DNA of 37,580 nucleotides from Fibrobacter sp. (GTDB lineage: Bacteria > Fibrobacterota > Fibrobacteria > Fibrobacterales > Fibrobacteraceae). The DNA lies in assembly GCA_017959225.1 (NCBI GenBank), contig JAGDBD010000117.1:1-37580 (forward strand), read 5' to 3'. The notes beneath the pieces are model-generated. The model was given only the letters and a program-made list of their open reading frames with translations, searched no databases and was not told the DNA's origin. The translations under genes and the position numbers were made by a program. Shown one piece after another: positions 2 through 35,209 of this stretch (the stretch's first letter is position 1; the number at the start of each line of letters is the position of its first letter).

Positions 2-1542
<1,541 letters not shown>

Positions 1543-9066: not shown

Positions 9067-9441
9067 TTAAGCGTGAGATGCTACAATTTCGTCAACCTTG
9101 GCAATCAGGTCTTTGTAATTAGGCGGCTTCGAGAAAATCGAAGAAACGCCAAAGTGACTTGCAATGTTCAGGTAGTCTTCCGAAGAAGTACGTCCGCCGC
9201 CGCTAATCGCGATGACGCGGTCGATCTGATTCTTGCTGCGGTAGTCGAGAATCACTTCGAAACCGTCCTGTTCCGGCATGATGATGTCGGTAATGACAAC
9301 GTCATATTCGGTCTTGTCGTAAAGTTCTTTGGCTTTGCGACCGTCTTCGGCTGTATCCACTTCGTATCCGGACATGCCGAGCATGTCCTTCAAAACGGTG
9401 CGGATATCTTCTTCATCGTCGATAATCAATACTTTAGGCAT
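9067..9441 (-). CDS. CheY-like single-domain response regulator
   Basis: A 124-aa stand-alone receiver with a complete canonical set of residues: Asp8/Asp9, phospho-acceptor Asp52 (VVITDIIMP), Ser80 and Lys105 (FSKPP). There is no output domain. The ATG at 9441 is chosen over the in-frame ATG at 9450 because GGAGG (9451-9455) directly abuts the first ATG but is 9 nt from the second, and because MPKVLIIDDE is the usual receiver start. It overlaps the end of the kinase gene by 8 nt, so translation is coupled. It could be a phosphate sink, a relay intermediate, or a protein-interaction switch. The kinase upstream lacks a fused receiver, so this protein is a natural direct partner. Confidence 0.94.
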   Translation of the reverse strand: MPKVLIIDDEEDIRTVLKDMLGMSGYEVDTAEDGRKAKELYDKTEYDVVITDIIMPEQDGFEVILDYRSKNQIDRVIAISGGGRTSSEDYLNIASHFGVSSIFSKPPNYKDLIAKVDEIVASHA

Positions 9442-11796: not shown

Positions 11797-12240
11797 TTAC
11801 TTGATTCGACGGATACCGAAGGTTTGCGTTTTGGTGTAGCTATCCTTGGAGGAGAATCGCTTTACCATGTCGCTGTCGAGTTCGGTATTCGGGTTGAACT
11901 TGGCCTGAATATCGATTTTTGCGATATATGCGCCCGTTCCGATGGCTCGTCCACTTTCCGAGGAAAGACCCTTGGTGCAGTTTGAAAGCCACTGCAAGCG
12001 CATTACGACCTGGTTGTCGCTCGAAAGATATTTCGGCGTCAGGTTGAAGCTTTGGTCGTAACGGTTTACGAATGAGCCGAGGTTCGTGTAGAACGGAAGG
12101 TCAATGTCGAAAAGGATGGATTTCCATGCCGGATCTTCACCGAAGCTCGTTCCGCGAGGAATGCCCATGTCGAGGATGTAGAGCATTCCGTCGAAGGTGT
12201 AAGCGTTGGTGTCGACGCTCGAAATCAGAACATCCTTTTC
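11797..12240 (-). other. Conserved C-terminal domain, candidate T9SS sorting domain (GH9, 1913 aa)
   Basis: The last ~145 residues align by eye with the end of the 2204-aa GH9 protein: GEDPAWKSILFD against GEDAWKATLKMN, YTNLGSFV against YSNTGSLV, RLQW against RLEW, SGRAIGTGAYI against SGRHVGTGAYI, and TQTFGIRR against TKTFGFRR. The Y-x3-G-x-F-V ... W ... GR-x-x-GTG-A-Y pattern is like a FlgD Ig-like fold, as in T9SS-type C-terminal domains. Function as a sorting signal is inference. Confidence 0.5.
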
Positions 12241-15200: not shown

Positions 15201-17538
15201 ACCAGTAAATGCGAGCGCTGTTATTTGTCACTTGACAAATGGTGACGCCAGAAATGCTGACGGCCGTAGAGGATTGAGTCCAGGTGTACCACTGTCCGTG
15301 ATTGTCGTCAGTGGTGTAATTCTGTTTTACATCATGACCGACGAGATAGAAGTAGTAAGTTGTTCCCGAAGTAAGACCTGTGAGCGTCACGGATCCGCCG
15401 ACGCCTGCAACGGCTGTGACGGAATCCACCTTGGCTGCATCCGGAGTCGTGGCGTAGTACACGGTTACGATGGCACGTTCATCTGTATCCCAACTGATGA
15501 TTGCCGATGTGTCCGAAATGGCTGTACCGACTACGTTAGAAAATACCGGTCCGTCCACGTCTTCCGGAACTTTTTTGGAAAGGCTTAATCCCGGGATGAC
15601 GAACTGTGCAGAGAAGTCGATGCAGGTTTCAGTTGCCGTGTAATCGTTCCAGTCGTCTTTTAGCAGATTGTGGGGAGCGGAGCCGCCCATGAGTGCGCCC
15701 TTGGGACATTTGTATTCGTAAGGCATGCCGCCAGCGTTATAACCGTCCGGATTCGATGCGCGGTTGTGGGGGTGGTTTTCGTTGCGTGTTCCCGTTCCCA
15801 TGATGAACGAAAGTCCCCATGGGTTTGCGCCCATGTTGTAATAGAAGTTGTCGAGAGCGACATTCAAATATTGTTCGTCGCCCGTGATGTCGTAGAGCAT
15901 GAAGACCGCGTTTGCAGCGCCCATATTGTAACGGTTAAAGCCCCAATCGCTGGATGTCCAAACGAGATTATACGGGGGGACTACAGTAAAGGATCCGTAG
16001 GGGTTTGTGCTGACCGTCGAGTCTCCCTGGGTTCCGTCATCCGTTAAACGGGTCATGGTTGCAACAATGCGCGTGAGAAGCGTGTCTCGTTCTGCACTGG
16101 AAATTCCGTAGCTTTGAGCCTTGGCCACCGTGGGAAGAATCAATTTATCAAACGCAAAAAGAACATAGGCGTGGATGTTTTCATAGTCCGTCATCCAACC
16201 GCCCGGGTAGAATCCGCTTCTGTGTCCGAGATATCCACCGCGGAAGTAGGGCAAGTTGTACATGTAATTGCTAGCGTTGTCATTGATAGCCGTGTTCTTG
16301 TACAAGTCGAATGCGTACGTTGTGTCTTTGGTTGCGTACCAAAGAGCAAGGGCAGCTGCAGCTGCGTCGTCGTAAAGAGGGCCGCCACCGGTATAAAATC
16401 CGTTGAGGTTGTCTGTGTTTTTGCCGTCCGGAGCGTACTTGGCAATAATGTTCTTGTAAATGTCTTTTGCGGCTGCGATAAGAGAATCCGAGTAATGGTC
16501 ATCTTGGTACATTTCCCAGCCCACAGCGAAGAATGCCATGGCTGCTGCAAACATGCCAGCTGCGTTTGTTCCGATGCCGTCTGCGACCGGGCGTGGTGCA
16601 CCACCTTTGTCAGGACTTTGGACGTCTTGATGTTCGGGAACATCCCAGAACTGGTGGTCCGCAGAAGTGACTGCTACGGAATGGTACATGTCTCCACGAT
16701 CGATTAAACCTTCGGCTTTCGAAGCCTTGTACATTTTGTAAATCCAGTCCACACCGATTTTAGCTTCCCAAAGAATGTCGGGAATACCGTCTGTTGTGAC
16801 CGTATCCGCGTAAGAAGCTCCAAAGCGATCTTCGGCACGTTCCGAATAAACGTTATAAGCGATGGAAAGAACAAAGGCTGCATATCCAAGGGTCTGGCTC
16901 ACTTTAAAGTGGTCACCACAGTCATGCCAACCTCCACTCAAATCATGCCCGATTGCAGAACCGTCTTTTGTGTGGCAAGCTCCGTGAAGTTGAGAATTGG
17001 TTCCGCCGCAGCGCTGAATGCCGAAAAACTTCAACGTGGTTTCAAAAACAGCGTTAAAAAGGTATTCGTTAATGATGAAGTTAAAGGAAGTGTCTTTTCC
17101 GACGACAAGGAAGTAGGTGCCCGGGGAAGTCAAACCGGAAAAGTCCGCGCTGTAAAGATTTTCTGTTCCCGAAGTGGCTGCTGATGAATCCCCGAAGGAA
17201 TACACGGTGTTGATGGAGTTGAAAGCTCCGTTTACCCACATGTTCGGTTTGGGCCAATTGCCTACTGACGTGAGATTCCCTTCCCAAACGGAAGCTCCGC
17301 TAGAAGCATCGATCACTTTAAAAGTGGATTCGGAGGGATCCGACACAAAGGCGAACTTGTGATTATCCGACGGGCGAAAGCCGATCTGGTTTACACGAAT
17401 GACGGGACGGTCGTAAACGTTCAAACTGTCGAGATAGCGACGGCTGCATGTATCACAGGTAAAATCGATATTTGGAATTCTATCGTCTGCAAATAAGGTT
17501 GCAACCAACATCAATAGAAAAAAGACGAGGCGTACCAT
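11797..17538 (-). CDS. Giant multidomain GH9 cellulase (1913 aa)
   Basis: Secreted endoglucanase-type GH9 enzyme that hydrolyses beta-1,4-glucan with inversion. Signal peptide at 1-17. N-terminal Ig-like domain (CelD_N) at ~43-150 (RPVIRVNQIGFRPSDNHKFA). GH9 catalytic domain at ~160-655: SGGWHDCGDHFK with Asp206/Asp209, NENHPHNRASNPDG with the active-site His/Arg, and general acid Glu637 in YTATETCIDFSAQF. Then two fibronectin III-like domains (~665-865), a beta-rich domain resembling carbohydrate-binding modules (~870-1020; NSDSIPYSDVELRFYLT), several Ig-like modules including Ca-loop sequences DTDCDNVPD and DADGDGLAE, and a conserved C-terminal domain with SGRAIGTGAYI and a basic tail (TFGIRRIK). 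Most GH9 enzymes have 450-1000 residues. AAGGAGT precedes the ATG. Paralogue of the next gene upstream. Confidence 0.95.
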   Translation of the reverse strand: MVRLVFFLLMLVATLFADDRIPNIDFTCDTCSRRYLDSLNVYDRPVIRVNQIGFRPSDNHKFAFVSDPSESTFKVIDASSGASVWEGNLTSVGNWPKPNMWVNGAFNSINTVYSFGDSSAATSGTENLYSADFSGLTSPGTYFLVVGKDTSFNFIINEYLFNAVFETTLKFFGIQRCGGTNSQLHGACHTKDGSAIGHDLSGGWHDCGDHFKVSQTLGYAAFVLSIAYNVYSERAEDRFGASYADTVTTDGIPDILWEAKIGVDWIYKMYKASKAEGLIDRGDMYHSVAVTSADHQFWDVPEHQDVQSPDKGGAPRPVADGIGTNAAGMFAAAMAFFAVGWEMYQDDHYSDSLIAAAKDIYKNIIAKYAPDGKNTDNLNGFYTGGGPLYDDAAAAALALWYATKDTTYAFDLYKNTAINDNASNYMYNLPYFRGGYLGHRSGFYPGGWMTDYENIHAYVLFAFDKLILPTVAKAQSYGISSAERDTLLTRIVATMTRLTDDGTQGDSTVSTNPYGSFTVVPPYNLVWTSSDWGFNRYNMGAANAVFMLYDITGDEQYLNVALDNFYYNMGANPWGLSFIMGTGTRNENHPHNRASNPDGYNAGGMPYEYKCPKGALMGGSAPHNLLKDDWNDYTATETCIDFSAQFVIPGLSLSKKVPEDVDGPVFSNVVGTAISDTSAIISWDTDERAIVTVYYATTPDAAKVDSVTAVAGVGGSVTLTGLTSGTTYYFYLVGHDVKQNYTTDDNHGQWYTWTQSSTAVSISGVTICQVTNNSARIYWWTGDVAMNGIVKYGTSTADLSASTIADDGKAVRFHETVLTDLEPGKTYYFDVISGATTDNNSGSHYSFTTSSEATFVDFRVYVKPASKNSSCSDWKSCNTFFVIVTNSDSIPYSDVELRFYLTKSVSATGWGQLAKVSYDDTSSMSLSYGAAQFDATSGGYYLPVTLQGTIGVSSSFQFEMQFTNATYGDLEGSWSLRAHTESSDPEYFSGIDLTRGPLYTGSESTFLEEVNGSLESAYKKDPYVTIFYHGTHIYGYPPDYDASSSDLSIARTITLDFATPFKSPATSLEDTLNTATYSGESTVSPSGFLDDFEGNGVSYFGTNTQYVKEYDDYIFSISKNLAYGNNMIDWVSWHNHGANAKGSYDCACKVVRSNVEWDSIVTPLEKRYLVFNVDTAKAYVGKRAQVIVTLYDSTGAIITDDDITISLSVEDGSAFFYTSATADIATTSLTLVNGTATFYVSSDTPLETILYASSISSSSKYNYTSAKAVLLIEELPPWPIIDYAKMLDTDCDNVPDQLMVILTASYQAGQNFSSISFEYRGDTITVSSATVQDSMISVNFTPKDTSVYTNPEGFVSLESNISGEIKTHTDFYQDGISPTILSLSVLERLDTATVDRIYIQFSEPISAPGLAWPLALFDASGNALDMMPSVTSSKLYNEKLNVWEYTISFDASGNSLITEGMKGQLLSTATITDKSGNAISSLCEQPILTFTLKILPISLQYASISDADGDGLAERVTAEFVSAVDSRHSPDSVSVIFGSAVPETLWAKTFSWNSENTVATITLEPAFKLGNTNGNYSGISSKGGDIIGAGLLTQHKGSGANYESDSTLAEDLTGPVIVAGTINSAGSFVSLLVESSEPLVVGDSSHSLIQRERSGPVNVAAYRWTLGTNTFNMLYEQESETAVQEGDRIRFTPLDGSLFLDKNGNQPSLENPWATVAGSGAPQITFDVHPEYPVSDISSTSESCTETKEPFRLIVLNQETRQWDIYEKDVLISSVDTNAYTFDGMLYILDMGIPRGTSFGEDPAWKSILFDIDLPFYTNLGSFVNRYDQSFNLTPKYLSSDNQVVMRLQWLSNCTKGLSSESGRAIGTGAYIAKIDIQAKFNPNTELDSDMVKRFSSKDSYTKTQTFGIRRIK

Positions 17539-17730: not shown

Positions 17731-18150
17731 TTATTTAGCTCCGACGCGCCGGAAGCCGAAGGTCTTTGTCTTGTTGGAAGACTGCTTCTTCGACTGTCCC
17801 TTCTTGTACTTGCCGTTTGCCGTGTTGCCCACGGCATTTTCGTTAGCCTTGAAGGAGAATTTCGAAATGTAAGCGCCTGTTCCCACGTGACGTCCGCTTT
17901 CCGAGAACGGAGCGATACCGTCATGAGTGACCCATTCCAGGCGAAGCTTGATCACACCGTCCGTGCTCATCGCTTCCTTTGCAATGTCGGAGAGCGAGAA
18001 GGTATAGGAAGTGGTGGCGACAAGGCTTCCCGTGTTGCTGTAGATATCGGCATTCATCTTGAGGGTAGCCTTCCAAGCGTCTTCACCCAGGGAGTCTAGC
18101 TGCAAGAGAAGCGGAATTTCGACATCGATATTGAACGTCGGTCCACCGTG
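17731..18150 (-). other. Conserved C-terminal domain, candidate T9SS sorting domain (GH9, 2204 aa)
   Basis: The final ~140 residues match the end of the 1913-aa paralogue and share the FlgD-like pattern with the PorU tail: YSNTGSLV, RLEW, SGRHVGTGAYI. A Lys/Ser/Gln-rich segment (KYKKGQSKKQSSNK) is inserted before the terminal TKTFGFRR. The strongly basic end recalls the basic terminal domains described for Fibrobacter secreted enzymes; equivalence is not established here. Confidence 0.5.
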
Positions 18151-21100
18151 GATGTACGTTGTTGTATCGAAAGTCACCGGAGAAACCGCTTGAAGCTTTT
18201 TCTTTCCGCTTGCGATCAAGGTTTCCTTGTCGTCAACAAGGTATGTGAGGCGGAAGCTTTCGTCTCTTGTCGGAAGCTTGCCTGCATACATGTCTCTATC
18301 CGCCGGAACTTCCGTTACACCGGTGAGCATGTGAACCTTGAAGGAAACATCTTCGATGTCACCCTGGACAAGGACCCACGGGTTTTCTTTACCCGGGAAG
18401 TTTGCAGAGCCATCGCTTGCAATGGAGTATTCCGTACCGATCGGCAGACGGATGTAATCGCCAACGTGGACTTCGTTTTCTGAACCTTCGTCCGCATAAG
18501 AGAAGGTCCAAGTGGTACCCGTGTTGGTGAGACGGCCCGAATTGGTGAACCAGTAGAGGCTTTCGTCACGACGCTTCTGCAGGTAATTCGTGCCTGCGGA
18601 AGTGGAATCTTCCGTCATGGGTTCCGAGAGGTTCACACGGAGAATGTAGAAAGATTCTGTCGGCTTCGAAATGGTTGCGCTCAGAATGATCGGCGGACAT
18701 TTGTCGTAAAGGGCTGCGGTATTGTCGTCGAAGAAGCCTCCCAGCGGACCCTGACGCGGCAAGATCATACCGTTACCGTTACGGCTACCGTAGGTCTTCT
18801 TGTTGAACGTATCGCCTGTAATCGCCAAGTGGATTGCTGTAGTCGTGCTCTGAACGGAATCAATACCGAGGGTATCGATGGCCGGAACGAAGGTCGAATC
18901 CTGGGTGGTGATATAGCTTGCGCAGGTCTGCGACATATGGGATGTGGTATCGATTTTTGCGATGACCTGATCGCCATTTTCGTCAGTCGTGTATGTCGTA
19001 TCGAGCTTGTCGATGATTCTCACGTCCTGATAACTTTCGCAAGACTTCTTTTCGGAGCCCTTGACCCAAGTTCCTCTCGAAGAGTCAAGCTGCGTAATGT
19101 ACTTGGCGACCTTGTCACCGTAAACGGTGTCGAGATTCCAGCCTGTGCTCGGCATCGGGAATGCGGCATAGACTTCCGGCTTACCCCAGTACACGTCAAT
19201 CGTGTCCAGCATATCCTTTTCACGGAGAAGCTTCGTGAATTCGATATAGATTTCATCCGGCTGACCATCACCTTCATTGTCGATGATGTTTGCGTACTTC
19301 ACAGGAACCGGACGGACGGATTCGATGATCGTCACAGCACCGTTACAATCGGAGAGGGCGTTCGTTGCCATGTCAACCACCGAGAAGCCGGCCTTGATGA
19401 TTGCCTTGTAACCTTGCTTGATGTAGTTTCCGTTGGTATTGCCTTCGACCACGTACTCCCAGATCTTGCCGTTGTCCGTAGACTTGGCGCTGATCACTTT
19501 GATCGTGCTCTGGTCGATTTCTGCACCGGTGCTATCGTAAATCGCGAGGGGCCAAGAAGAGGTGCTGAGCGTTACGCGTTCCGAGAAGGCGATGCGCAAG
19601 GTATCCTGTGCGTTTTCGTGATTTTCGTTTTCAAGAATCGCAACGCTTGCAAGGGTCGGAGCGATACCGTCTGTAATTGCCTTTTCGGCGTATTTCACGA
19701 CACCGTCTTCGGTCATATAGATGGTCACAGTTCCCGACGGAGCTGCATTTTTCGGAACGTCAAGGCCCGCAAGCGAGAAGTTCGCCGTGGTACCGGTGAC
19801 TGTTGCCGAAGGCGTGACGAGAAGTTCCGTTGCAGCGGTCGTACTTGTGGAATCGAGAGAAATGCGGACGCTGTCCAGCTTAATCGAAGAGCCGTCAAAC
19901 TGGTTTCCGCTAAAGGTAATCGTCAAAGCGTCGGCGGTAGCATCGCAATCCGAGTCCGTAAGAATGGCCTTCTGCGGAATCGGAGTTGTAGGATCGGCAA
20001 AGAACGCCTGGGCTGTAGAATCTTCCGGATCTTCCACGTCGATGTAAACAACGGTTACCGTGTCACCGCCCAAGAGGGAAACCTTCGGAAGGCTTGCGTC
20101 TGCGCTGTTGACTGCGGAGAGCCATTCACTTTCGAAGTAGCCGAGAGTTGCATTGGTGCGGCTTAAGGATACTTCTGTGGAGTCTCCGGTGCGGGAATTG
20201 TGGAGCATCACGTGGATGGTTTCGTAACCGGCGTTATCCTTATCGCTGACAAAGACCTTGAACTTCATCGGGTCTTCCGTTACCGGGCTCGAAACGGAGC
20301 TTCCATCTTCGCGGAGAAGCTGGATCTTGCCCGCGGTGCGGTCACCCTTGCTGAACTGCACATAGTACGTACGGTTCACAAAAGCGCAGCCGCCGTTTTC
20401 AAGACATTCAGAACAATCCGGATCCGGACCGGCAAAAATCGTCACGTCAACCTTGTTCGTTCCGATGCTCATCTTCACCGGAATGTTCAAGTCAAAGCGG
20501 CCTGTTGCATAGTTGTACACGGCTGCTGTAGAAAGCTGATCCTTGGAAAGAGCCACGCCGTTCACCCAGATAGCTGTTACGTAACCGTTTTCCGAAATGG
20601 TGGCGTTACCCGTCAGACGCATGGTGCTGATGGTGGAGTCGATCTGGATGTAAGAACCGTTAGAAACGTTGAACGGAGCGTCGAAAGCCACGGTCATTTC
20701 GTAATTGGCACGTTTCTTTGTCATTTCCGAATAAGACGGGCTAAAGCCGACGACGAATTCATCCTTGCGGTAAACGACCACGTACGGGTTTACCGGAGCT
20801 TCGTCCTGGTCACCGTCATCCTTGCCCCATACTGGCATGCCGGCATAGTCGGCACCGTCCACGTCGCGCTGGTGCGGAGCCCAGGTCCAGTCGCCAGTAG
20901 AAGCTGTCATGCGCTTTTCCGGTGCGGTGCGCAACGGATCGCACTTGCCGTTCTGGTAAAGTCCTTGGGAGAATCCTAAGTCCATACGCATACGGGAAGA
21001 AGACTTGATGGTTGTAGATCCGAGCGGGATCGGAATGTACCAGTCGTAAGTTCCCTTTGCGGAATTGTAAGTATCTTCGAGTTTTACAGGGATTGCGCCA

Positions 21101-24100
21101 CGGAGCAAATCGCGGATTTCTCTGTCGGTTTCGCAAGGTTTGTTAAAACCGGCTTCGTCGTAGGCCTGGCAAATATCCAAGTCGAGCAAGAGCGGGCAGG
21201 ATCCCGGCTGGTTGTTTTCTCCGGCCTGGGCTTCGATCTGTTCCGGCTTTGCGGTCACATAGAGACGCAGAGTCAAGCTGTCAAACTGACGATCTTCGTT
21301 GTTGTAAATATTGATGTTTAAGAAGCCAAGACCACCGAATTCATACTGGTAAGTGCGAACATCGAAGTCGTAGGATGTGACAGGCGTCGTAAACTTAAGC
21401 GGCATTCCTTCGTCGTCGGTGCAACGAATGGCCGTGTTGCTCTGAACGCAGTAATAATAAGTCGTCTTTTCCTTTAATCCGCCGAACTTTACGTAATGGA
21501 AGCTTGTGGGAATGCCCGAAACGTCTGCGTTCGCTTCGAAATCACAGGTTCCAGTCGGAGAAGTGGGGCAGGTCATTTGGTCGTAAGACGTCAAGAGCGT
21601 ATCCCAGTAGACTTTAGATTCGTACTGGCCGTTCGGCGTGTACCACATGATTTCTGCGCTGTCGGAAGAAAGGTTGCAAACCTTGATATTTTGGATGTTG
21701 GCGTCAGCCGGCGGACTCACGAGAGTCGTAAACGAGAAAGGCGTACTGGTGCTGTCCACGAGCCATTTGGTGGTATAGGCTTCGCTGCGGATATTTATCG
21801 CAATGACCTTGAAGTAATAGGTCGTTCCGTTGGAAAGGCCTGTCATGTGAATTTCGTGGCTTACCGCGTTCACCGTATCTTTGAACATCTGGTTGAACGG
21901 ACCTGTTTCGCTTGTGCTGTAAAGGATCATGGCCGGACCGCGCTGGTCCTGAGTCACCTTCACAATGGCCGAATCATAACCGACATAGCGAATTTCCACA
22001 TTCACCTGTTCCGGAGCCTTGGAGCGGTCTTCTTCCTTCACTGCGACTGCGCAAGAAGCGACAAACATAGCCGTAGCATCGATACAGGTTTCCGAAAGAT
22101 GGTAATCTTCCCAGCTCATGGTGCTCGGAGCCCAGGCGTTGCCGTCGGTAACGCTCGGTGTCACGCCACCGAAGAGAGCGCCGGTAGGCGGATTATAAAC
22201 GTAGTTGGCGCCCGGCATGTTCTTGCCTTCCGGGTTAGAGGCGCGGTGGTGAGGGTGAGCGTCGTTTTTATCGCCAACGCCAAGGAGGAACGATACATCC
22301 CACGGGTTCACGCCCAGCATATAGTTCAGCTGGTTGATACCCAGCTTTTTCATTCCGGAAGAATTCCAGGTTTGGACGCCTTTTTGGGGAAGTTTGACGC
22401 CTTCTAAATCTTTGGTCACATCGGCATAGGCGAGAACTTCAAAAATATTACCTGCCTGGTAACGGTTGTAAATCCAGGTCTGGTCGGTCTGCATATTGTA
22501 CCAGAGATCACCGTAATAAACTGGCGTCGGGCCGTTCAGCGTCGGAATGGTGACGCTTTCGGTTCCTGATCCGCTCAAATAGCTCAGGTTTGTGCCCAAA
22601 ATCAAGGCCACGTTTTCGGCATACTTTAAACGGGTCTTGTTGTCGATACCGTACTTGAGACCGGTTGCTTCATCTTTGAGAAGCATCTTGTAGAAGCCGT
22701 AAAGCGTATAGGTATATGCGTTTGCCCAGCTAGTGTTCTTACTCGACTTGCGCATACCGTCGCGGTTCCAGGCCATCCAGCCGCCGTTGAAGAAGCCGAC
22801 GGAAGCTTCCTGGTCGTCACCGATTTCCGTATCTTCTACGGCATCGTTCAAATAATCCATGACTTTCGTATTTTCGTAAGTCGCATAATGGAGAGCGATT
22901 GCTGCAATGGCCAAGTCGTCGTGGGATTCGTTGTTGCCGTTATATGCAGAGCTAGCCCAACCGTCGGCAATGGTGTTATAAACATAAGGTTTACCATCGT
23001 CATAGGTTCCCGGGCCAAGGCTCTTTTCTTTAAGCTTCAGGTTCTTGGCAAATTCATACATCTTCTTTGCGACCATCAAGCAGGAATCGGCAAAAGCTTT
23101 GTCGTAATCCTGATAATCTTTACCGAGGATCGCAAGACCTGCAGCAATCTGACCGGAAATATTGGAACCCAGTTCTCCCAAGCGCAAATCGCGTTCATGA
23201 GGGCCACCACGGCCTGTAAGTGTTGTCGGGAGAGCGTCCTGATTTTCCGGACGGCCCCACCAACCGTGGTCCGCACCGAAATTACCGACGGAAACCACCA
23301 TGTTGTCGATCACGCCGTTTGCAAAAACATAAGAGCGCAAGAAGAAGTCTGCACCGTGCTTTGCTTCGCGAAGAATGTCTGGAACACCATCGGTGTTAAT
23401 GGTTTCGCCCATGTTGTAAGCGTAATTATCTTCATCACGATCCGGATTGGAAGCGGCCATTACGGCGAGCACCATAAAAGCATAGGCTTGGGTCTGGGAT
23501 TCCTTCAAATGGTCACCGCAGTCATACCAACCGCCCTGCAAAGCGCCTTCTTGAGAAGTAAAGCCGGATACAGCAGCGTCGCCTTGTACAAAAGATCCAC
23601 CGCCATCCTTGGTATGCCTCGGGTCGTGGAACCAGGATTCGGAATTGCCGGAGCGGTTGATGCCGTAGAACTTGAGGGTCGCATCACGGACCATCGAGTA
23701 AACTTTATCGCTGATAATAAAAGAAGCGGAGTATTGGTTCAAAACTTTCACGCGGTAACGGGTATCGGTCGAAAGGCCTGCCATCTGGGAAAGGTTACCC
23801 ACGCAGACTGTTCCCGAAGGACCGTCTTCTGCAACGGAATAGCGCTTTTGGTTGTTTGTCGCTGCATTCGTTCCGGCGATAATTGTCCAGGAAGAAGAGG
23901 TGGTTTTGCCTGTGGTTGCAAAGGTGCCCCCTTCTGCCACTGTATTTCCGTCCAAATCTACGACGGAATAAGTTTCTGCGCAGTTGCCGGCAGACACATA
24001 ATAAAACTGCTTTTCGGTATCGTCCGGAAGGTAACCAGCCTGGTTAATGCGGATACGGCCAATACGCACATTCTGAGCGTCGCGGTAAGCCTGGTTCAGA

Positions 24101-24345
24101 GAATCCGGGATAATGCCGTTTGGAACAAAGTCCTGTGGAACGGACCCAACTTCTGGAACCGGATTGTGCTTGGTTTTGTTTGGAACGTACTGGCTAAAGC
24201 TTTCCACCGTACCGCCGTCGTCTGTGGCAGCGGTGTCCCATTTCATCGGCCAAATAGGGCGAATCAGGTCGTAAGGGGTCGGTTGTTCTTGTTCGACTGC
24301 AAAAAGAGCGGCAGTAAACAGAAGTATATACGCAAAAACAGGCAC
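17731..24345 (-). CDS. Giant multidomain GH9 cellulase (2204 aa)
   Basis: Second secreted GH9 enzyme. It starts at GTG with GGAG 5 nt upstream; an in-frame stop a little further up rules out a longer protein. The signal peptide (MPVFAYILLFTAALFA) is unusual in having no basic residue. A Pro-rich extension (~20-95) precedes CelD_N (IGRIRINQAGYLPDD). GH9 domain: GGWYDCGDHLKES with Asp275/Asp278, NDAHPHHRASNPEG, and general acid Glu752 in YHLSETCIDATAMF. Two fibronectin III-like domains (~775-1010), a beta-rich CBM-like region with several Cys, Ig-like modules with DSDCDATAD and DNEGDGQPD loops, and the conserved C-terminal domain (SGRHVGTGAYI) ending in a Lys-rich stretch and TFGFRRVGAK. Module order matches the 1913-aa protein, so the pair arose by an old duplication. 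Attachment to the cell or fibre through the tail is plausible, not shown. Confidence 0.95.
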   Translation of the reverse strand: MPVFAYILLFTAALFAVEQEQPTPYDLIRPIWPMKWDTAATDDGGTVESFSQYVPNKTKHNPVPEVGSVPQDFVPNGIIPDSLNQAYRDAQNVRIGRIRINQAGYLPDDTEKQFYYVSAGNCAETYSVVDLDGNTVAEGGTFATTGKTTSSSWTIIAGTNAATNNQKRYSVAEDGPSGTVCVGNLSQMAGLSTDTRYRVKVLNQYSASFIISDKVYSMVRDATLKFYGINRSGNSESWFHDPRHTKDGGGSFVQGDAAVSGFTSQEGALQGGWYDCGDHLKESQTQAYAFMVLAVMAASNPDRDEDNYAYNMGETINTDGVPDILREAKHGADFFLRSYVFANGVIDNMVVSVGNFGADHGWWGRPENQDALPTTLTGRGGPHERDLRLGELGSNISGQIAAGLAILGKDYQDYDKAFADSCLMVAKKMYEFAKNLKLKEKSLGPGTYDDGKPYVYNTIADGWASSAYNGNNESHDDLAIAAIALHYATYENTKVMDYLNDAVEDTEIGDDQEASVGFFNGGWMAWNRDGMRKSSKNTSWANAYTYTLYGFYKMLLKDEATGLKYGIDNKTRLKYAENVALILGTNLSYLSGSGTESVTIPTLNGPTPVYYGDLWYNMQTDQTWIYNRYQAGNIFEVLAYADVTKDLEGVKLPQKGVQTWNSSGMKKLGINQLNYMLGVNPWDVSFLLGVGDKNDAHPHHRASNPEGKNMPGANYVYNPPTGALFGGVTPSVTDGNAWAPSTMSWEDYHLSETCIDATAMFVASCAVAVKEEDRSKAPEQVNVEIRYVGYDSAIVKVTQDQRGPAMILYSTSETGPFNQMFKDTVNAVSHEIHMTGLSNGTTYYFKVIAINIRSEAYTTKWLVDSTSTPFSFTTLVSPPADANIQNIKVCNLSSDSAEIMWYTPNGQYESKVYWDTLLTSYDQMTCPTSPTGTCDFEANADVSGIPTSFHYVKFGGLKEKTTYYYCVQSNTAIRCTDDEGMPLKFTTPVTSYDFDVRTYQYEFGGLGFLNINIYNNEDRQFDSLTLRLYVTAKPEQIEAQAGENNQPGSCPLLLDLDICQAYDEAGFNKPCETDREIRDLLRGAIPVKLEDTYNSAKGTYDWYIPIPLGSTTIKSSSRMRMDLGFSQGLYQNGKCDPLRTAPEKRMTASTGDWTWAPHQRDVDGADYAGMPVWGKDDGDQDEAPVNPYVVVYRKDEFVVGFSPSYSEMTKKRANYEMTVAFDAPFNVSNGSYIQIDSTISTMRLTGNATISENGYVTAIWVNGVALSKDQLSTAAVYNYATGRFDLNIPVKMSIGTNKVDVTIFAGPDPDCSECLENGGCAFVNRTYYVQFSKGDRTAGKIQLLREDGSSVSSPVTEDPMKFKVFVSDKDNAGYETIHVMLHNSRTGDSTEVSLSRTNATLGYFESEWLSAVNSADASLPKVSLLGGDTVTVVYIDVEDPEDSTAQAFFADPTTPIPQKAILTDSDCDATADALTITFSGNQFDGSSIKLDSVRISLDSTSTTAATELLVTPSATVTGTTANFSLAGLDVPKNAAPSGTVTIYMTEDGVVKYAEKAITDGIAPTLASVAILENENHENAQDTLRIAFSERVTLSTSSWPLAIYDSTGAEIDQSTIKVISAKSTDNGKIWEYVVEGNTNGNYIKQGYKAIIKAGFSVVDMATNALSDCNGAVTIIESVRPVPVKYANIIDNEGDGQPDEIYIEFTKLLREKDMLDTIDVYWGKPEVYAAFPMPSTGWNLDTVYGDKVAKYITQLDSSRGTWVKGSEKKSCESYQDVRIIDKLDTTYTTDENGDQVIAKIDTTSHMSQTCASYITTQDSTFVPAIDTLGIDSVQSTTTAIHLAITGDTFNKKTYGSRNGNGMILPRQGPLGGFFDDNTAALYDKCPPIILSATISKPTESFYILRVNLSEPMTEDSTSAGTNYLQKRRDESLYWFTNSGRLTNTGTTWTFSYADEGSENEVHVGDYIRLPIGTEYSIASDGSANFPGKENPWVLVQGDIEDVSFKVHMLTGVTEVPADRDMYAGKLPTRDESFRLTYLVDDKETLIASGKKKLQAVSPVTFDTTTYIHGGPTFNIDVEIPLLLQLDSLGEDAWKATLKMNADIYSNTGSLVATTSYTFSLSDIAKEAMSTDGVIKLRLEWVTHDGIAPFSESGRHVGTGAYISKFSFKANENAVGNTANGKYKKGQSKKQSSNKTKTFGFRRVGAK

Positions 24346-28432: not shown

Positions 28433-29056
28433 ATGGAACGCTTTATCGTCGTAGATTACAATGCAGGAAACTTGACTTCGGTGCTGAATGCTTTTGAACG
28501 TATCGGTGCAAATGTCAAGGCTTCCCGCGATCCTTCTGAAATCGCTGAAGCAGAACGCCTGGTCTTTCCCGGCGTGGGCGCTGCTCGTTCGGCGATGGAA
28601 ACTTTGGAAAAAACGGGTATCGGCAAAGCGATTGTCGAAGTCGTCCGCAAAAAACGACCGGTTCTCGGCATTTGCATTGGATGCCAGATTATTCTGCATT
28701 CCAGTGAAGAAAATGGCGGAGTCGATACTCTCGGTCTTATTGACGGTAAGGCTGTTCGTTTTCAGGATGAAGCTGGAATTAAAATTCCGCATATGGGATG
28801 GAACCAGGTGGAACTGTTGAAGGAACATCCTTTGTTCGAAGGTGTTCCAAACAGCAGCGATTTTTATTTCGTGCATTCTTTTCACCCGGCAGAAATCGCT
28901 GTGGAGAACGCTCTTTCCAAAACCACCTACGGATCGCAAACGTTTACATCGGCCGTTTGCAAGGAGAACCTGGTTGCAACGCAATTCCATTTGGAAAAAA
29001 GCGGCGACGTGGGACTTCGCGTTTTGAAAAACTTTAGCACCTGGAGCGGAAAATAA
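28433..29056 (+). CDS. hisH: Imidazole glycerol phosphate synthase, glutaminase subunit
   Basis: HisH releases ammonia from glutamine and passes it to HisF for histidine (and AICAR) synthesis. The 207-aa length is standard. The class I glutamine amidotransferase triad is Cys81 (LGICIGCQ), His186 and Glu188 (QFHLEKSG). VVDYNAGNLTSV and VFPGVGAARSAM are typical HisH segments. The usual GICLGMQ reads GICIGCQ here, placing a second Cys three residues after the nucleophile. Stop and hisF start overlap by one base (TAATG). No other his genes are in the window, so the histidine pathway is split in this genome. The Shine-Dalgarno before the ATG is weak. Confidence 0.95.
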   Translation: MERFIVVDYNAGNLTSVLNAFERIGANVKASRDPSEIAEAERLVFPGVGAARSAMETLEKTGIGKAIVEVVRKKRPVLGICIGCQIILHSSEENGGVDTLGLIDGKAVRFQDEAGIKIPHMGWNQVELLKEHPLFEGVPNSSDFYFVHSFHPAEIAVENALSKTTYGSQTFTSAVCKENLVATQFHLEKSGDVGLRVLKNFSTWSGK

Positions 29057-29835
29057 TGCTGACCAAACGTTTGATTATTTGCTTGGACGTTCGAAACCGC
29101 AAGGTGACGAAGGGCGTGAAGTTTAAGGGAAACATCGATGTGGGTGATCCCGTAGAGCTCGGAGCCAAGTACAGTGCCGATGGCGTAGACGAACTGGTTT
29201 TTTACGACATCACGGCCAGCGCAGAAAATCGCCCGTGCGACCTGGAAATGGTGCGAGACATTGCTAAGCATGTCTTTATTCCTTTTGCCGTCGGCGGTGG
29301 AATCCGTTCCTTGGACGACATGCATCAGGTGCTTCTTGCCGGTGCGGAAAAAGTGAGCGTGAACAGCCTTGCTGTTTTGCATCCGGAGATCATTGAACAG
29401 GGCGCCAAGGCTTTCGGTAACCAGTGCGTGGTGCTGGGAATGGATGCCAAACGTGTAGGTGTATCGGAAAAGTTCCCGTCCGGATATGAGATTTATATCA
29501 AGGGCGGTCGAGCAGCCACCGGGCTTGATGCGGTTGAATGGGCAAAGAAAGCGGAATCTCTCGGAGCGGGGGAAATCTGCTTGAACGCGATGGATACCGA
29601 CGGCGTCCGGGACGGTTACGAATTAGAAATTACAGACAAAGTAGCGAAAGCTGTAGGCATTCCGGTTATTGCATCGGGCGGAGCTGGAAAGCCTAGCCAC
29701 ATTGCAGACCTTTTTGCAAAAACGTCTGCGGATGCGGCCCTTGTCGCAAGCATGGTACATTTCGGAGATTATACCGTAGCCCAGATCAAGGAAGAAATGA
29801 GCAAGGCGAATATCCCTGTAAGGAAGATTGTGTAA
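29056..29835 (+). CDS. hisF: Imidazole glycerol phosphate synthase, cyclase subunit
   Basis: HisF is the (beta/alpha)8 cyclase that joins PRFAR and HisH-derived ammonia. The 259-aa protein has the catalytic pair Asp11 (ICLDVRN) and Asp130 (LGMDAKR) at the standard positions, plus phosphate-binding loops FAVGGGIRSLDD and VIASGGAGKPSH. Some usual residues vary (NAMDTDGVRDGYELE where SMDRDGTKDGYDLE is common). HisF-like proteins also act in surface-sugar amidotransfer (WbuZ type); the pairing with hisH does not separate these, but the sequence is close to the histidine-pathway form. tldD begins two bases after the stop codon. Confidence 0.94.
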   Translation: MLTKRLIICLDVRNRKVTKGVKFKGNIDVGDPVELGAKYSADGVDELVFYDITASAENRPCDLEMVRDIAKHVFIPFAVGGGIRSLDDMHQVLLAGAEKVSVNSLAVLHPEIIEQGAKAFGNQCVVLGMDAKRVGVSEKFPSGYEIYIKGGRAATGLDAVEWAKKAESLGAGEICLNAMDTDGVRDGYELEITDKVAKAVGIPVIASGGAGKPSHIADLFAKTSADAALVASMVHFGDYTVAQIKEEMSKANIPVRKIV

Positions 29836-29836
29836 A

Positions 29837-31216
29837 ATGAATCCAGACGTCGCAGAATCCATTCTCGAAGCCGGCAAAAGTTACGGCGCAGATTATGTGG
29901 AAATCTTTGAAGAAGAAACCCGCTCATCGACGCTTGCTCTCAAAGATCAAAAGATCGAAACGGCTTCGGCTGGCACGGAGTTTGGAATTGGCGTGCGTCT
30001 TTTGTACGGAACGGAAGTTCTGTACGCTTACACAAGCGACGAAAGCAAGGATGCTCTTTTGAACATGGTCAAAACCTTGGCGTTTGGACGCACAGGTTCA
30101 GGCCAAGGTTCTGTCACGTATGTGCCGACTCCCACAAAATTCGGCGAAAATTATCCGAATTTTATGGATCCCCGGCTTCTCGGCAACGGTTACAAGTTGG
30201 ACTTTTTGCATGCGGCAGACGCCAACGCTCGCAAAGTTTCAGACCGTATTTGCCAAGTCGTTGCAAGCATCACCGATTCCAGTTCCCACGTGAACATCAT
30301 CAGTTCAAGCGGTGTGAACGTTACCGATTACCGTTGCCACACCCGACTCGGAATCAATGTGACCGCAGGATCGGGGTCCGAAAAGATCGTGGCCCGTGAA
30401 GCGCCCGGTGCGCTTGCCGGTTACGAATCTCTTGAAACGTTCCATGTTTCGGAACTTGCGGAAATGGCGGCGGAACGTTCGCTTCGCATGCTCAATGCTG
30501 GTCACATTGCCGGCGGTGTTATGCCGGTGGTTATGGGCCCTGGCTTTGGCGGTGTGATTTTCCATGAAGCAGTGGGGCATCCCCTGGAAACGGAAGCCAT
30601 CCGTCACAACGCAAGCCCGTTCTGCGGTAAACTGGGACAGGTCGTTGCACAGCCGTGTTTAACAGCGATTGACGACGGGACAATCCCCGGATCGTGGGGA
30701 AGCGTTGCCGTAGACGATGAAGGCATGAAAACGGAACGGACCGTTTTGATTGAAAACGGCGTTTTGAAAAATTACATGTCGGACATGGTCGGCGCAATGG
30801 AAGTCGGCTGCGCTCGTACAGGCAGCGGTCGCAGAGAATCTTATAAATACGCTCCCGTGAGCCGTATGCGAAATTCCTTTATCGCTCCGGGCAAGGATTC
30901 TTTCGACGAAATGATCCGCAGCGTGGATCACGGCCTTTATGCGGCCAAAATGGCAGGTGGTTCCGTGAACCCGGCGACAGGGGAATTTAATTTTGCTGTG
31001 GAAGAAGGTTACGAAATCGACCATGGAAAAATCGGACGTCCGGTGCGCGGAGCGACCCTCATCGGTAAAGGCGACCAGGTTCTTCAAGGAATTTCCATGG
31101 TGGGAAACGACCTTTCGATTGCAGCCGGTGTCTGCGGAGCTTCTTCGGGATCAGTTCCTGTGACCGTAGGACAGCCAACGATAAAAGTGGATTCCATTCT
31201 TGTGGGAGGAAGATAA
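29837..31216 (+). CDS. tldD: Metalloprotease TldD
   Basis: TldD forms a heterodimer with TldE (PmbA) and degrades unfolded or modified peptides; it is also needed for microcin B17 maturation in E. coli. The chosen ATG gives 459 aa; an upstream TTG would overlap hisF and has no support. The zinc motif HEAVGHPLE gives His243, Glu244 and His247, and the third ligand is the Cys in GVCGASSGS near the C-terminus. NHSF/GSGRRESY-like loops and PVTVGQPTIKVDSILVGG close the domain. The partner gene tldE is not in the window. It lies between hisF and porU in one closely spaced run (3 nt before the porU start). Confidence 0.95.
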   Translation: MNPDVAESILEAGKSYGADYVEIFEEETRSSTLALKDQKIETASAGTEFGIGVRLLYGTEVLYAYTSDESKDALLNMVKTLAFGRTGSGQGSVTYVPTPTKFGENYPNFMDPRLLGNGYKLDFLHAADANARKVSDRICQVVASITDSSSHVNIISSSGVNVTDYRCHTRLGINVTAGSGSEKIVAREAPGALAGYESLETFHVSELAEMAAERSLRMLNAGHIAGGVMPVVMGPGFGGVIFHEAVGHPLETEAIRHNASPFCGKLGQVVAQPCLTAIDDGTIPGSWGSVAVDDEGMKTERTVLIENGVLKNYMSDMVGAMEVGCARTGSGRRESYKYAPVSRMRNSFIAPGKDSFDEMIRSVDHGLYAAKMAGGSVNPATGEFNFAVEEGYEIDHGKIGRPVRGATLIGKGDQVLQGISMVGNDLSIAAGVCGASSGSVPVTVGQPTIKVDSILVGGR

Positions 31217-31219
31217 CAG

Positions 31220-34200
31220 GTGCGTTTGACCGCTCTCTTCATCGCTTTGTTTGCGTCCCTTCTGTGGTCTTTTGAAACCGTGGAAGATTCCAAATCGCGC
31301 TTTGTTTTGCAAGACGGAATTGCGGACGTTACGCCTGTGGCTTGCGAAGAGGGCGATTACCATCTGCTTCCGGAGAATGCCGTTTACCAAAACGGATCCG
31401 GAATGCCTTACCGCATTTACCGGGTCGCGCTTCCTTCGAACGCAAAGCCTTCGGTGACGGTTTCGGATTCCGTCCGGACATCTTTTGGAAAGACCTGGTG
31501 CAAGTCCGATTCATTGAAAAACGGCTCGGTGCAAATTTCTGCCCCGAAGCTCCGCGATGGAGTCTGGGTTTCGGATATTTGGGTGCCGCTGTTGCAGGTT
31601 TCTGGAAATTCTGTTTTTGTGCGCAAAAATTTTCAGGTGAAAATTTCCTTTTCGGGCACTCCGCAGAACAAACGCCCGGGCAAACGCATCCTTGCACAGG
31701 TTTTAAATCCGAAAGGAGCTGCTTCTTTTGGAACGTCAACGAGTACCGCTAAAGTTCTTCGCAAAGCGGCCGCTTCGGATCTTTCAAACGTTACGTGGAT
31801 TTCCCGATTGAAAATCGGCGACACGGACAATGGAACCACTTCGGAAGACGGCCTTTACTTTGTGACGTACAAACAGGTTTATTCCGCATGCAAGGAAGTG
31901 GCCCGTTCCGCAGACTGCGAAGGAATTCCTGTGGAAAAACTTCGCATGTACGGCGCACCGCAGGATACCCTTTCGGATATGATCCGGAGTTCTCTTGAAA
32001 TCGTTCCGAACCGCTTGTTTGAAATTCCTCTCGACATCCGCGATAATGATGGAACGTTTAACGACGGCGATACGATTTTCTTCGTGGGCTATGGAACTTC
32101 CATGTGGAAACGTTTTGATTTGGAAGATTCCACTGCAACGCCCAAAATGCAGTACTATTATTCGTCTTCGCCCTATAGCTATTACCAGTATTTTCAGCTG
32201 GGGTATAGTTCTACAGGCAAAGGCTTGCGCCTTTCGACCGTATCTTCTCCCAGTTCCGGCTCGGACGTGAACGTGATGCGGTACGTACGCATGGAAAAAG
32301 ACCTTCTTTTGCGTGACGATTATTTTGGTGACGAAAGCTCCTGGGAAGAATATTCGGGAAAAGAATGGTTCTGGATTTGGAATACCGCCAGAGATTCGGT
32401 GGATGTTTCCTCTTCCACATTTGCTGCGCCCCGCGTTTCGACACTTCCGAACTTGATTTCGGATGGTGAAACTTATTTGGCGGTGTCCTACGTTCCCCAT
32501 TCAAAGACTATGTATACGCGTTCGCGATTTACATTTACGGTCAACGGAAACACCTATTCCACCTATAATCGTTTTCCGATGGGGAATTACATTGTCGAAA
32601 ATCCTGCGTTGAAAGCTTCTGGAAATACTTATTCCATGAGACTTTTGCCGAACGGTTCCGTAAACGATCGTTTTGACGGATTTTCCATCGCTTACACGTG
32701 GAATCCGACTCTTGAAAACGATTCTGCGGAATGGATTTTGCCGGGAAAGCAGAGCGGTCGCATTCGCATTCCGTTTACGACAAGCTCCCAAATTGCCGTG
32801 ATGAAGTTCGAAGATTTTGAACCGGTGGGACTTTTGAATTCTAAAAACGGCTACCTGTACGATAGTTTGTCTGCAAACGTGGACACGCGCTACCTGATTT
32901 ACAACAAAAAGAATCCTCATAAACTGGCGGGCATCGAAGGCGTTCCTGCGCATATTTCCGGAACCCTGTCGGATATTTCCCGTATATCTTCCAAAACGGA
33001 ATATTTGATTATTGCTCCTGAAGCGTTCCAGGTTCCAGCGGTTGAACTTGCCAAATTCCGTTCCGAAGGAAAAGCCTTCCAAACATTCAACACGACAGTC
33101 GTTCTTGCGGAAGATATTTACAGGGCCTATTCCGGCGGGGCAATGGATCCTGTAGCGATCCGCAATTATCTAGCTTACGCCCGAAGCGTTTCGCCTAATT
33201 TGACCTACGCTGTTCTCGCTGGTAACGGAAACTTCGATTACCGCGGAAAGTATTCCGGATTCAAAACCAATTGGATTCCACCTTTTGAAAAGGAAGATGC
33301 CGCTGCGGAAGACTTCTTTGCCGTTTTGGATTCGGGGGAAAGGGTTCTTCGCGGATCTTATGACTTGGACCTTTATGTGGGACGTTTGCCGCTTTCAAGC
33401 GTTGCCGATTTCAATGCGTACAACTTAAAGATCGAAGAATATGAAAGGACTGCCAGTGCGGACAACTCTTCTTGGAGAAATTCCTTGGTCATTACCGCCG
33501 ATGACGCGTGGACAGGATCTTCGACGGATGGCATTGACCATACGACTCCGGCGGAAGACCTTTCCCGTACGCTTTTGAACGCTTCGACGGAAGACAGCTT
33601 CCATCTCGACATTCACAAAATCTATCTGTTGGATTATACGGCGGATGCCGCGGGCCAAAAGCCAGACGCTTCCAATGACCTGATCAACCGCATCAATCAA
33701 GGTTCTCTTTTTACGGTATACTTTGGTCACGGCTCCATTTCGGACTGGGCCTTTGAAGGCTTAATGAAGCCCTCTTACATTTCGAGCCTTTCCAACGAAT
33801 CGCGTTACACGATCCTTGGATCTTTCTCGTGCACGGTGGGACGTTTTGACAAAGGCAATGAAACTTCGCTTTCGGAATATTTCATTCAGGCTTCCAAGCG
33901 AGGCTCTATTGCTGCCATCGGTGCGACACGCGAAACCTCCGGAAGTTACAACAAAGTATTTGCAAAATCCGTTTTGACAAATGCGCTTTTCCCGACGGGC
34001 AATACACTTGGAAAGGCTTTTGCAACCGCCAAAACCATGACGGGGCTCGGATATCAAAGCTCCGCGTCCCAGCGTTACAACAACGAACGCTATGTGCTTT
34101 TGGGAGAACCGGTCGTTCCGATGCCGAATGCTGCGTTAAACGTGAAGCTCGATCAAAAAGTGGATACGATCCGCGCCTTGGACAGCATGACCCTTTCGGG

Positions 34201-35209
34201 AACGGTCTCCGGCATTTCGAACGGATCGATTCACATTTCCATTTTGGAACAGAGCTATGAAAAGAAGCTCAGCCAGGAACCTGCAGAACGAGATTCCGTT
34301 GCCGTGCTTTATGACGGCTCGCAGATTTTTAGCGAAGAAGCGGAAATCAAAGACGGAAAGTTCCTTGTGAACTTTATTACACCGCGAAAAATTTCTTTTG
34401 GCGATACCGCTGCGGAAATCCGCATTTGGGCAAATTCCAATTCAACGCCTAAAATCGGACGCACGTTGGTTTCTGGAATTTCCATTGCGGGAATGTCTGC
34501 TTATGCGGATTCGATCATTGCAAACGATACAATTGCACCTTCGATTTCGATCCAGAGCTGCCTTTCTCCGGCATCGGGAACGTCCTTTGCCGAAGGCGAA
34601 ACGGTAACCCTTGCTTCTCCGGCATGTTTACAGGTGACCATCGAAGATTCAACGGCTATCGACTTCCGAGAAGAAGCGGATGAAGGCGTTTCCTTCGAAG
34701 TGGTGGGCTCCACCGTTTCCATGTCGCCATTCCATCCTTGGCCATACCTGGAACAGTCCAGCAAAAAAGCGGTTGCCCGGATGTCTTTTGCCGAAAGCAA
34801 GTTCCCAGCAGGGCTTTACACGTTCCGCGTTGCGGCGATGGATATTGTTGGTAATGAATCTACCCGTGAAATCAAGGTCAATGTGACCGATGGACTTTCG
34901 GAAGGCCTTTCCGACGTGTTTACTGTGCCAAACCCGATGAAGAAAAAGGGGACGACCTTCTACTTCAAAGACTTGGCGGTGGGCCGTTCCACGGACGTCA
35001 CGATCTTTATTTATAACCAGAATGGACGCTTAGTTTACCGCATTCCCAACGCCGTTTCGGGTGTGACAACTTGGGATGGCCGCGATTTCTACGGTCGTAA
35101 ACTTGCCAACGGCCTTTATCATTATATCGTGGTTTCCAAAGTGGCGGCAACGGACGGGGCTGCTGCAAAGACTTTCCGCAAAAAACAGAAGCTTGTTATT
35201 TCGAGGTAA
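31220..35209 (+). CDS. porU: PorU-like type IX secretion C25 peptidase/sortase
   Basis: PorU is the gingipain-family (C25) cysteine peptidase that removes T9SS C-terminal signals at the cell surface and links cargo to an anchor. The 1329-aa protein starts at GTG (GGAGG 10 nt upstream) with signal peptide VRLTALFIALFASLLWS. An N-terminal beta-rich region covers ~20-590. The C25 domain (~600-970) has IIAPEAF, a VGRLPLSS segment, the catalytic His837 in VYFGHGSISDW and catalytic Cys871 in GSFSCTVGRFD, each matching the PorU HG/SC pattern. Ig-like domains follow, and the last ~90 residues are a FlgD-like C-terminal domain (VPNPMKKKG, YNQNGRLVY, WDGRDFYGRKLANGLYHY) ending in basic residues. It is longer than P. 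gingivalis PorU (1158 aa). No PorV or other T9SS gene is adjacent. Confidence 0.88.
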   Translation: MRLTALFIALFASLLWSFETVEDSKSRFVLQDGIADVTPVACEEGDYHLLPENAVYQNGSGMPYRIYRVALPSNAKPSVTVSDSVRTSFGKTWCKSDSLKNGSVQISAPKLRDGVWVSDIWVPLLQVSGNSVFVRKNFQVKISFSGTPQNKRPGKRILAQVLNPKGAASFGTSTSTAKVLRKAAASDLSNVTWISRLKIGDTDNGTTSEDGLYFVTYKQVYSACKEVARSADCEGIPVEKLRMYGAPQDTLSDMIRSSLEIVPNRLFEIPLDIRDNDGTFNDGDTIFFVGYGTSMWKRFDLEDSTATPKMQYYYSSSPYSYYQYFQLGYSSTGKGLRLSTVSSPSSGSDVNVMRYVRMEKDLLLRDDYFGDESSWEEYSGKEWFWIWNTARDSVDVSSSTFAAPRVSTLPNLISDGETYLAVSYVPHSKTMYTRSRFTFTVNGNTYSTYNRFPMGNYIVENPALKASGNTYSMRLLPNGSVNDRFDGFSIAYTWNPTLENDSAEWILPGKQSGRIRIPFTTSSQIAVMKFEDFEPVGLLNSKNGYLYDSLSANVDTRYLIYNKKNPHKLAGIEGVPAHISGTLSDISRISSKTEYLIIAPEAFQVPAVELAKFRSEGKAFQTFNTTVVLAEDIYRAYSGGAMDPVAIRNYLAYARSVSPNLTYAVLAGNGNFDYRGKYSGFKTNWIPPFEKEDAAAEDFFAVLDSGERVLRGSYDLDLYVGRLPLSSVADFNAYNLKIEEYERTASADNSSWRNSLVITADDAWTGSSTDGIDHTTPAEDLSRTLLNASTEDSFHLDIHKIYLLDYTADAAGQKPDASNDLINRINQGSLFTVYFGHGSISDWAFEGLMKPSYISSLSNESRYTILGSFSCTVGRFDKGNETSLSEYFIQASKRGSIAAIGATRETSGSYNKVFAKSVLTNALFPTGNTLGKAFATAKTMTGLGYQSSASQRYNNERYVLLGEPVVPMPNAALNVKLDQKVDTIRALDSMTLSGTVSGISNGSIHISILEQSYEKKLSQEPAERDSVAVLYDGSQIFSEEAEIKDGKFLVNFITPRKISFGDTAAEIRIWANSNSTPKIGRTLVSGISIAGMSAYADSIIANDTIAPSISIQSCLSPASGTSFAEGETVTLASPACLQVTIEDSTAIDFREEADEGVSFEVVGSTVSMSPFHPWPYLEQSSKKAVARMSFAESKFPAGLYTFRVAAMDIVGNESTREIKVNVTDGLSEGLSDVFTVPNPMKKKGTTFYFKDLAVGRSTDVTIFIYNQNGRLVYRIPNAVSGVTTWDGRDFYGRKLANGLYHYIVVSKVAATDGAAAKTFRKKQKLVISR
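34900..35209 (+). other. FlgD-like C-terminal domain of PorU
   Basis: Residues ~1228-1329 carry PNP, then YNQNGRLV, TTWDGRD, YGRKLANGLYHY and a basic end (KKQKLVISR). The spacing and signature residues parallel the C-terminal domains of the two GH9 proteins. In known systems PorU keeps its own C-terminal domain. Confidence 0.65.

Follow-up and report, generated by a model that had tools for sequence, protein, structure and literature searches.

The two giant glycoside hydrolase family 9 (GH9) cellulases encoded next to each other in a draft genome of Fibrobacter sp. (GCA_017959225.1) probably carry, as their last ~105–140 residues, a divergent C-terminal domain for sorting to the type IX secretion system (T9SS). 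The stretch of DNA that we analyzed (JAGDBD010000117.1, 37,580 nucleotides, hereafter the window) spans an entire contig (C111) of this 2.43 Mb assembly of 130 contigs, and it also encodes a homologue of the T9SS sortase PorU. We favor a sorting tail because the domain is related at superfamily level to known sorting domains, forms a family of its own, has a terminal basic end, is carried by large exported proteins, and occurs in genomes that encode SprA, PorU and PorV. For the export of Fibrobacter cellulases and fibro-slime proteins, type II, type III and type IX models have all been published.

Profile comparisons relate the GH9 tails to PorU

A first-pass annotation, made from the window's sequence alone, had claimed that the tails of PorU and of both GH9 proteins share the order of their signature residues and a basic end. 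This observation held up in full. The PorU tail reads YNQNGRLV..W..GRKLANGLYHY, the tail of the first GH9 protein (GH9-1) YTNLGSFV..W..SGRAIGTGAYI..TFGIRRIK, and that of the second (GH9-2) YSNTGSLV..W..SGRHVGTGAYI..TFGFRRVGAK. The isoelectric points of the last 120 residues are 9.9 for PorU and 9.3 and 9.8 for the GH9 proteins, as compared with 5.8, 4.5 and 4.7 for the whole proteins. The interval to which the annotation had assigned this pattern, 31220–35209, holds PorU only, and both GH9 tails lie outside it. The two GH9 tails are 36% identical over 197 columns. Among named relatives, the window's GH9 tail is closest to those of Fibrobacter sp. UBA4373 and Fibrobacter sp. RUI018, with 90% and 86% identity, respectively.

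When PorU was compared with the GH9 proteins by pairwise BLASTP, the tails remained unaligned and pairwise identity was negligible; the claim of homology therefore rests on profiles. The aligned GH9 tails were used to search the genome, which yielded six further carriers and then a 26-member alignment (A3); the addition of relatives from further families of the phylum gave a 60-sequence profile. Aligned by hhalign to a profile of 32 PorU C-terminal domains (CTDs), the tail profile matched with P 1.1e-7 (probability 94), while reversed profiles gave P values of 0.77–0.8. Against the alignment of whole PorU proteins, the best-matching region was again the CTD (P 1.5e-4). Because members had been recruited by similarity to the GH9 tails rather than to PorU, this comparison is not circular. 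A PDB profile search with the tail returned seven matches at E ≤ 10, among them Helicobacter pylori FlgD, Porphyromonas gingivalis PorU (1111–1144) and PorZ. Individual tails pointed the same way: 8 of the 26 matched the NCBI PorU model (best E 0.0027), and one matched FlgD at 0.003. Since the controlled profile alignment, the PDB search and the single-tail matches agree, the sequence evidence argues that the GH9 tails and the PorU tail are true distant homologues within one superfamily of FlgD-type immunoglobulin-like (Ig-like) domains and T9SS CTDs.

The first-pass annotation had expected a seven-stranded Ig-like sandwich. AlphaFold predicted an all-beta fold for the GH9-1 tail with good confidence, both for the last 185 residues (predicted local distance difference test score 91.1, predicted template modelling score 0.85) and for a 132-residue core (88.2 and 0.76). 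In a fold search with the predicted core, PorU ranked 3 and 7 and FlgD 8, 9, 12, 15 and 18 (E 0.08–0.15, template modelling score about 0.3), an order that is suggestive only. The 185-residue GH9 model gave no clear fold match, and the searches with both models returned mainly generic Ig-like sandwiches.

Position and spread of the tail family

The family is defined by the signature [FY][TS]N[LT]Gx[FY]V .. W .. GRxxGTGAYI, followed by a variable basic linker and by the end motif [WF]-G-[VIFY]-[RK]-R a few residues before the stop codon. Between the signature blocks, the fibro-slime members frequently carry two cysteines (C.D..F.GDC). Although the preceding linker is variable, the motif at the stop codon is conserved, and this conserved end fits the finding that the terminal CTD residues of P. 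gingivalis are essential for T9SS translocation (PMC11285876). Both GH9 proteins do carry the TFGxRR after which the first-pass annotation had named the tail domain; across the family, the conserved end is the broader [WF]-G-x-[RK]-R. A subgroup (L093 on contig C62 of this genome, with L022, L030, L033 and L038) ends instead in WG[VIL][HR]xG plus an acidic stretch.

The tail was found in 61/61 Fibrobacteraceae genomes, at 1–19 copies each. Among other Fibrobacterota, 55 of 57 genomes gave matches, mostly at lower scores and with the position of the weaker ones inspected for part only; end variants there include FGFLR, FGYLR, VGVLR and similar forms. Across the 84,980 species genomes scanned, the GH9-tail form appeared only in Fibrobacter and other Fibrobacteres records. 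Of the earlier proposal of a Fibrobacter-specific sorting domain, membership in the superfamily of FlgD-type Ig-like domains and T9SS CTDs is supported and the restriction to Fibrobacter gives way to a phylum-wide spread.

Every match whose reading frame was inspected lies 0–32 residues from the stop codon. This distance is 0–10 residues at ~39 non-redundant loci in Fibrobacteraceae and 0–32 for 34 matches (14 + 20) in other families of the phylum. On named contigs, 69/69 matches end within 4 residues of the stop, bar one outgroup type, and in a census of two complete or near-complete genomes all 23 matches end within 25. Among well over 100 matches inspected, none was internal. Sec-type signal peptides were recognized where the N-terminus was present, and the expectation of the first-pass annotation, a family found only at the ends of exported proteins, agrees with everything inspected.

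This distribution bears on a different reading, in which the tail would be a structural or binding Ig-like module, holding partners, peptidoglycan or cellulose within the reported surface multi-protein complex, and export of the carriers would instead depend on a system such as type II secretion. Large extracellular proteins are indeed rich in Ig-like modules, generic sandwiches dominate the fold search, and type II and III routes have been proposed from expression data (PMC4668043, PMC3079729). However, a binding module would be expected to occur in internal copies as well, the conservation of the end motif behind a variable linker is difficult to reconcile with it, and by profile the tail stands closer to the PorU and PorZ CTDs and FlgD than to generic adhesive Ig domains. 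We consider this reading unlikely.

Comparison with known sorting domains

Reviews name three CTD types, A, B and C (PMC10202324). By its sequence, the tail is a family of its own that is covered neither by the type A nor by the type B models. A Pfam scan of 26 tails returned no relevant family, and the GH9 proteins gave no match at E ≤ 10 to sorting-domain or FlgD models. By profile, the tail is closest to the CTDs of PorU and PorZ, with which it shares the order of the signature (D/TNxG..V, W, GR..GxY), the terminal position and the basic end. It differs from them by a longer insert between the signature blocks, often with two cysteines, and by its [WF]GxRR end in place of KQKLVISR. The likeness to the FlgD Ig-like domain (PF13860) is one of sequence at superfamily level. 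FlgD is a flagellar hook cap protein, whereas the tail is carried by exported enzymes and adhesins; none of the A3 tails matches PF13860.

The type A domain (TIGR04183, PF18962), which in Fibrobacter has been described as BTD/FPm-1, requires closer comparison. Raut et al. (2019) proposed BTD/FPm-1 as a T9SS signal and the T9SS as a route for cellulases (PMC6851124); the same route, put forward in the first-pass annotation, is not new. One could regard the tail as a diverged type A domain and not as a separate family. Both are C-terminal and basic, occur in the same genome on exported carbohydrate-active proteins, and share the signature order, and a relationship also exists between the type A profile and that of the PorU CTDs (P 5e-6). 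Yet 26/26 tails miss both TIGR04183 and PF18962 (E ≤ 10), none has a place among the TIGR04183 matches listed for the genome, and the tail profile matches type A weakly (P 0.0099), far short of its match to the PorU CTDs. In addition, the tail has its own insert and end motif, and the GH9 protein FSU_0809 is listed with neither BTD nor a T9SS signal (Table 1 of PMC6851124). The comparison with BTD/FPm-1 drew on the type A models and on that published table. On balance, a mere offshoot of type A seems improbable, somewhat more so than a binding module.

Like the tail, type B domains (CHU_C, TIGR04131) serve large surface adhesins, in Bacteroidota (PMC12618676, PMC10202324). A type B explanation was rejected: none of the 26 tails matches CHU_C or TIGR04131, and the type B shuttle PorP/SprF, the gene for which is usually linked, was found neither in this genome (G000) nor in G017, with 18.8 bits in G033 against a cut-off of 90.55.

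Carriers of the two tail classes

The genome gave ten tail matches, and the eight carriers examined comprise the two GH9 proteins, four fibro-slime proteins (TIGR02148), one cadherin-repeat protein and one Big_5 protein. Judged by eye, with no predictor, Sec-type signal peptides are present in both GH9 proteins and in L089, L091, L093 and L094; in L090 and L092, a contig end truncates the N-terminus. In the same genome, ~25 proteins carry the standard type A domain over cut-off, and those sampled were a rhamnogalacturonan lyase, GH8, GH10, GH26, GH5 and normal-size GH9 enzymes, and two proteins without a clear enzyme domain. The earlier description of the tail as a sorting domain for cellulases is too narrow, since six of the eight carriers are not GH9 proteins and normal-size cellulases and hemicellulases carry type A. 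The predicted domains of the carriers point to a surface proteome that is split between two tail classes: type A on ordinary carbohydrate-active enzymes, and the new tail on the largest proteins, among them giant GH9, fibro-slime and cadherin-repeat proteins.

Fibro-slime proteins have been implicated in adhesion to cellulose (PMC4668043, PMC6291624), and in F. succinogenes S85 both they and GH9 proteins were found extracellularly (PMC4668043). The tandem GH9 pair of S85, Fisuc_0393/0394, was detected in the medium together with several fibro-slime proteins, Fisuc_0393 at almost six-fold over the outer membrane (PMC4668043). From gene order rather than from sequence, we infer that this pair is orthologous to that of the window. 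It is probable from the shared tail that cellulases and cellulose-gripping adhesins leave the cell by one route.

T9SS components and the PorU-like protein

In six Fibrobacterota genomes (G000, which is this genome, G017, G033, G073, G067 and G061), SprA, PorU and PorV were found where they were looked for, while models run with no positive control recognized neither GldL nor GldN, nor GldM in those genomes where it was sought. In this genome, SprA/Sov scores 1208 bits together with neighboring pieces (cut-off 200), and the PorV family 144 and 107 bits (cut-off 90). About six PorV-family proteins are encoded in the genome (G000:C2, C65, C21, C5, C71 and C3), one of them 784 residues long, and it is possible that they act as specialized shuttles. 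We also looked for a T9SS cluster around PorV and discarded the idea, as the neighbors resemble housekeeping genes.

The PorU-like protein of the window has an intact open reading frame (ORF) that matches Peptidase_C25 at E 3e-68 and the PorU sortase model NF033707 at E 1.7e-118 from end to end (model positions 13–1094 of 1095). Its 396.9 bits with NF033707 fall below the NCBI cut-off of 420, which only 33 of 151 Fibrobacterota genomes pass, and this is why we call the protein PorU-like. Both the His/Cys dyad of C25 peptidases and a C-terminal CTD are present. The latter scores 28.1 bits with CHU_C and 26.5 bits with FlgD_ig (cut-off 27 for each), and matches P. gingivalis PorU at 4.7e-5 and PorZ at 0.044. 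PorU-like proteins were found in 149 of 151 genomes of the phylum, and 14 control genomes gave no signal.

Discussion

If the tail is a sorting signal, its carriers would be exported by Sec and the tail would fold in the periplasm. The folded tail would then dock on the SprA translocon, probably via a PorV-like shuttle, and carry cellulases and fibro-slime adhesins across the outer membrane. Afterwards, it may either be removed by PorU, with the protein becoming attached, or be retained; PorU and PorZ do not lose their CTDs, and type B tails appear to stay uncut (PMC10202324). The present tails are more similar to the PorU CTD than to type A.

Several observations weigh against a sorting tail. 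FlgD Ig-like domains occur outside the T9SS too. No tail reaches the curated cut-off of any sorting-domain model, and fold searches with the predicted tail structures gave no significant PDB match. Of the T9SS genes by which the first-pass annotation had proposed to judge the route, Sov/SprA and PorV are present, alongside PorU, whereas the NCBI models for GldL/PorL, GldM/PorM and GldN/PorN (TIGR03513, TIGR03517 and TIGR03523), searched with no positive control, yielded no match above cut-off in any of the Fibrobacterota genomes searched. Finally, type II or III secretion has been suggested for these enzymes in earlier work (PMC4668043).

One might suppose, in view of the negligible pairwise identity and the non-significant fold search, that the likeness to PorU is convergence between two Ig-like beta sandwiches with a common beta-hairpin signature, but this is very improbable given the strength of the profile match, its clean reversed controls, a recruitment independent of PorU, and the presence of FlgD, PorU and PorZ among so few PDB matches. 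A sorting tail thus remains our preferred explanation. We put forward a more specific version of it only tentatively, as one that may well be wrong: in Fibrobacterota, giant cellulases and fibro-slime adhesins would have a distinct, undescribed class of T9SS tail to themselves, served by a PorV-like shuttle of its own and by a translocon that something other than a recognizable PorL/PorM motor drives. If true, this would be how these proteins cross the outer membrane, and a display system that they share would underlie the contact-dependent cellulose digestion of Fibrobacter.

In the open-access literature, which excludes subscription papers, we found no description of this tail, nor any report that giant GH9 and fibro-slime proteins have it in common. 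A single tail, definable by sequence, that unites the conserved giant GH9 pair with the fibro-slime adhesins allows the cargo to be listed for each Fibrobacterota genome and opens the type IX model to testing. It also points to PorV-family proteins as candidate shuttles, and raises the question of what powers a T9SS without recognizable PorL, PorM and PorN.

Genomic setting

Features of the window are listed in the table below. Directly downstream of the GH9 pair lie genes for a membrane sensor kinase and an NtrC-type sigma-54 response regulator. Of 41 related loci searched by tblastn, 38 gave matches to both. This suggests that the order GH9-GH9-kinase-regulator is conserved across Fibrobacter, and the two may control the GH9 enzymes. 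Within the genus of the window, PorU is found close to the GH9 pair, which is not so in the genomes of genus g2 that were looked at. A linkage of PorU and GH9 as the sign of a shared operon was considered and dropped, because it is seen in G017, of the same genus, while the genes lie on different contigs in genus g2 genomes (e.g. G058). No recognized T9SS gene stands beside PorU within the window. PorU follows hisH, hisF and TldD, and the adjacency of TldD and PorU recurs in G017 (L096). The window also encodes a protein with a Fib_succ_major domain, which represents another family of Fibrobacter surface proteins.

Table 1. Coordinates of features in the window, with candidate and predicted elements marked as such.
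Feature	Position	Strand	Details
Giant GH9 protein 1 (GH9-1)	11797..17538	-	1913 residues; signal peptide, CelD_N, GH9, fn3-like domains, tail domain
GH9-1 C-terminal sorting-tail domain (candidate)	11800..12219	-	last 140 residues; YTNLGSFV, SGRAIGTGAYI
Terminal motif TFGIRRIK at stop codon, GH9-1	11800..11823	-	
Giant GH9 protein 2 (GH9-2)	17731..24345	-	2204 residues, GTG start; signal peptide, GH9, fn3-like domains, tail domain
GH9-2 C-terminal sorting-tail domain (candidate)	17734..18153	-	last 140 residues; YSNTGSLV, SGRHVGTGAYI
Terminal motif TFGFRRVGAK at stop codon, GH9-2	17734..17763	-	
PorU-like C25 peptidase (T9SS sortase homologue)	31220..35209	+	1329 residues, GTG start, N-terminal signal peptide; ORF intact
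PorU His837, predicted catalytic His	33728..33730	+	GHG motif
PorU Cys871, predicted catalytic Cys	33830..33832	+	SFSC motif
PorU C-terminal FlgD-Ig/CHU_C-type domain	34892..35206	+	~105 last residues
Fib_succ_major domain protein	397..1542	-	PF09603, 7.7e-24
NtrC-type sigma-54 response regulator	7649..9052	-	
Membrane sensor kinase	9434..11683	-	
hisH-hisF-TldD-PorU	28433..35209	+

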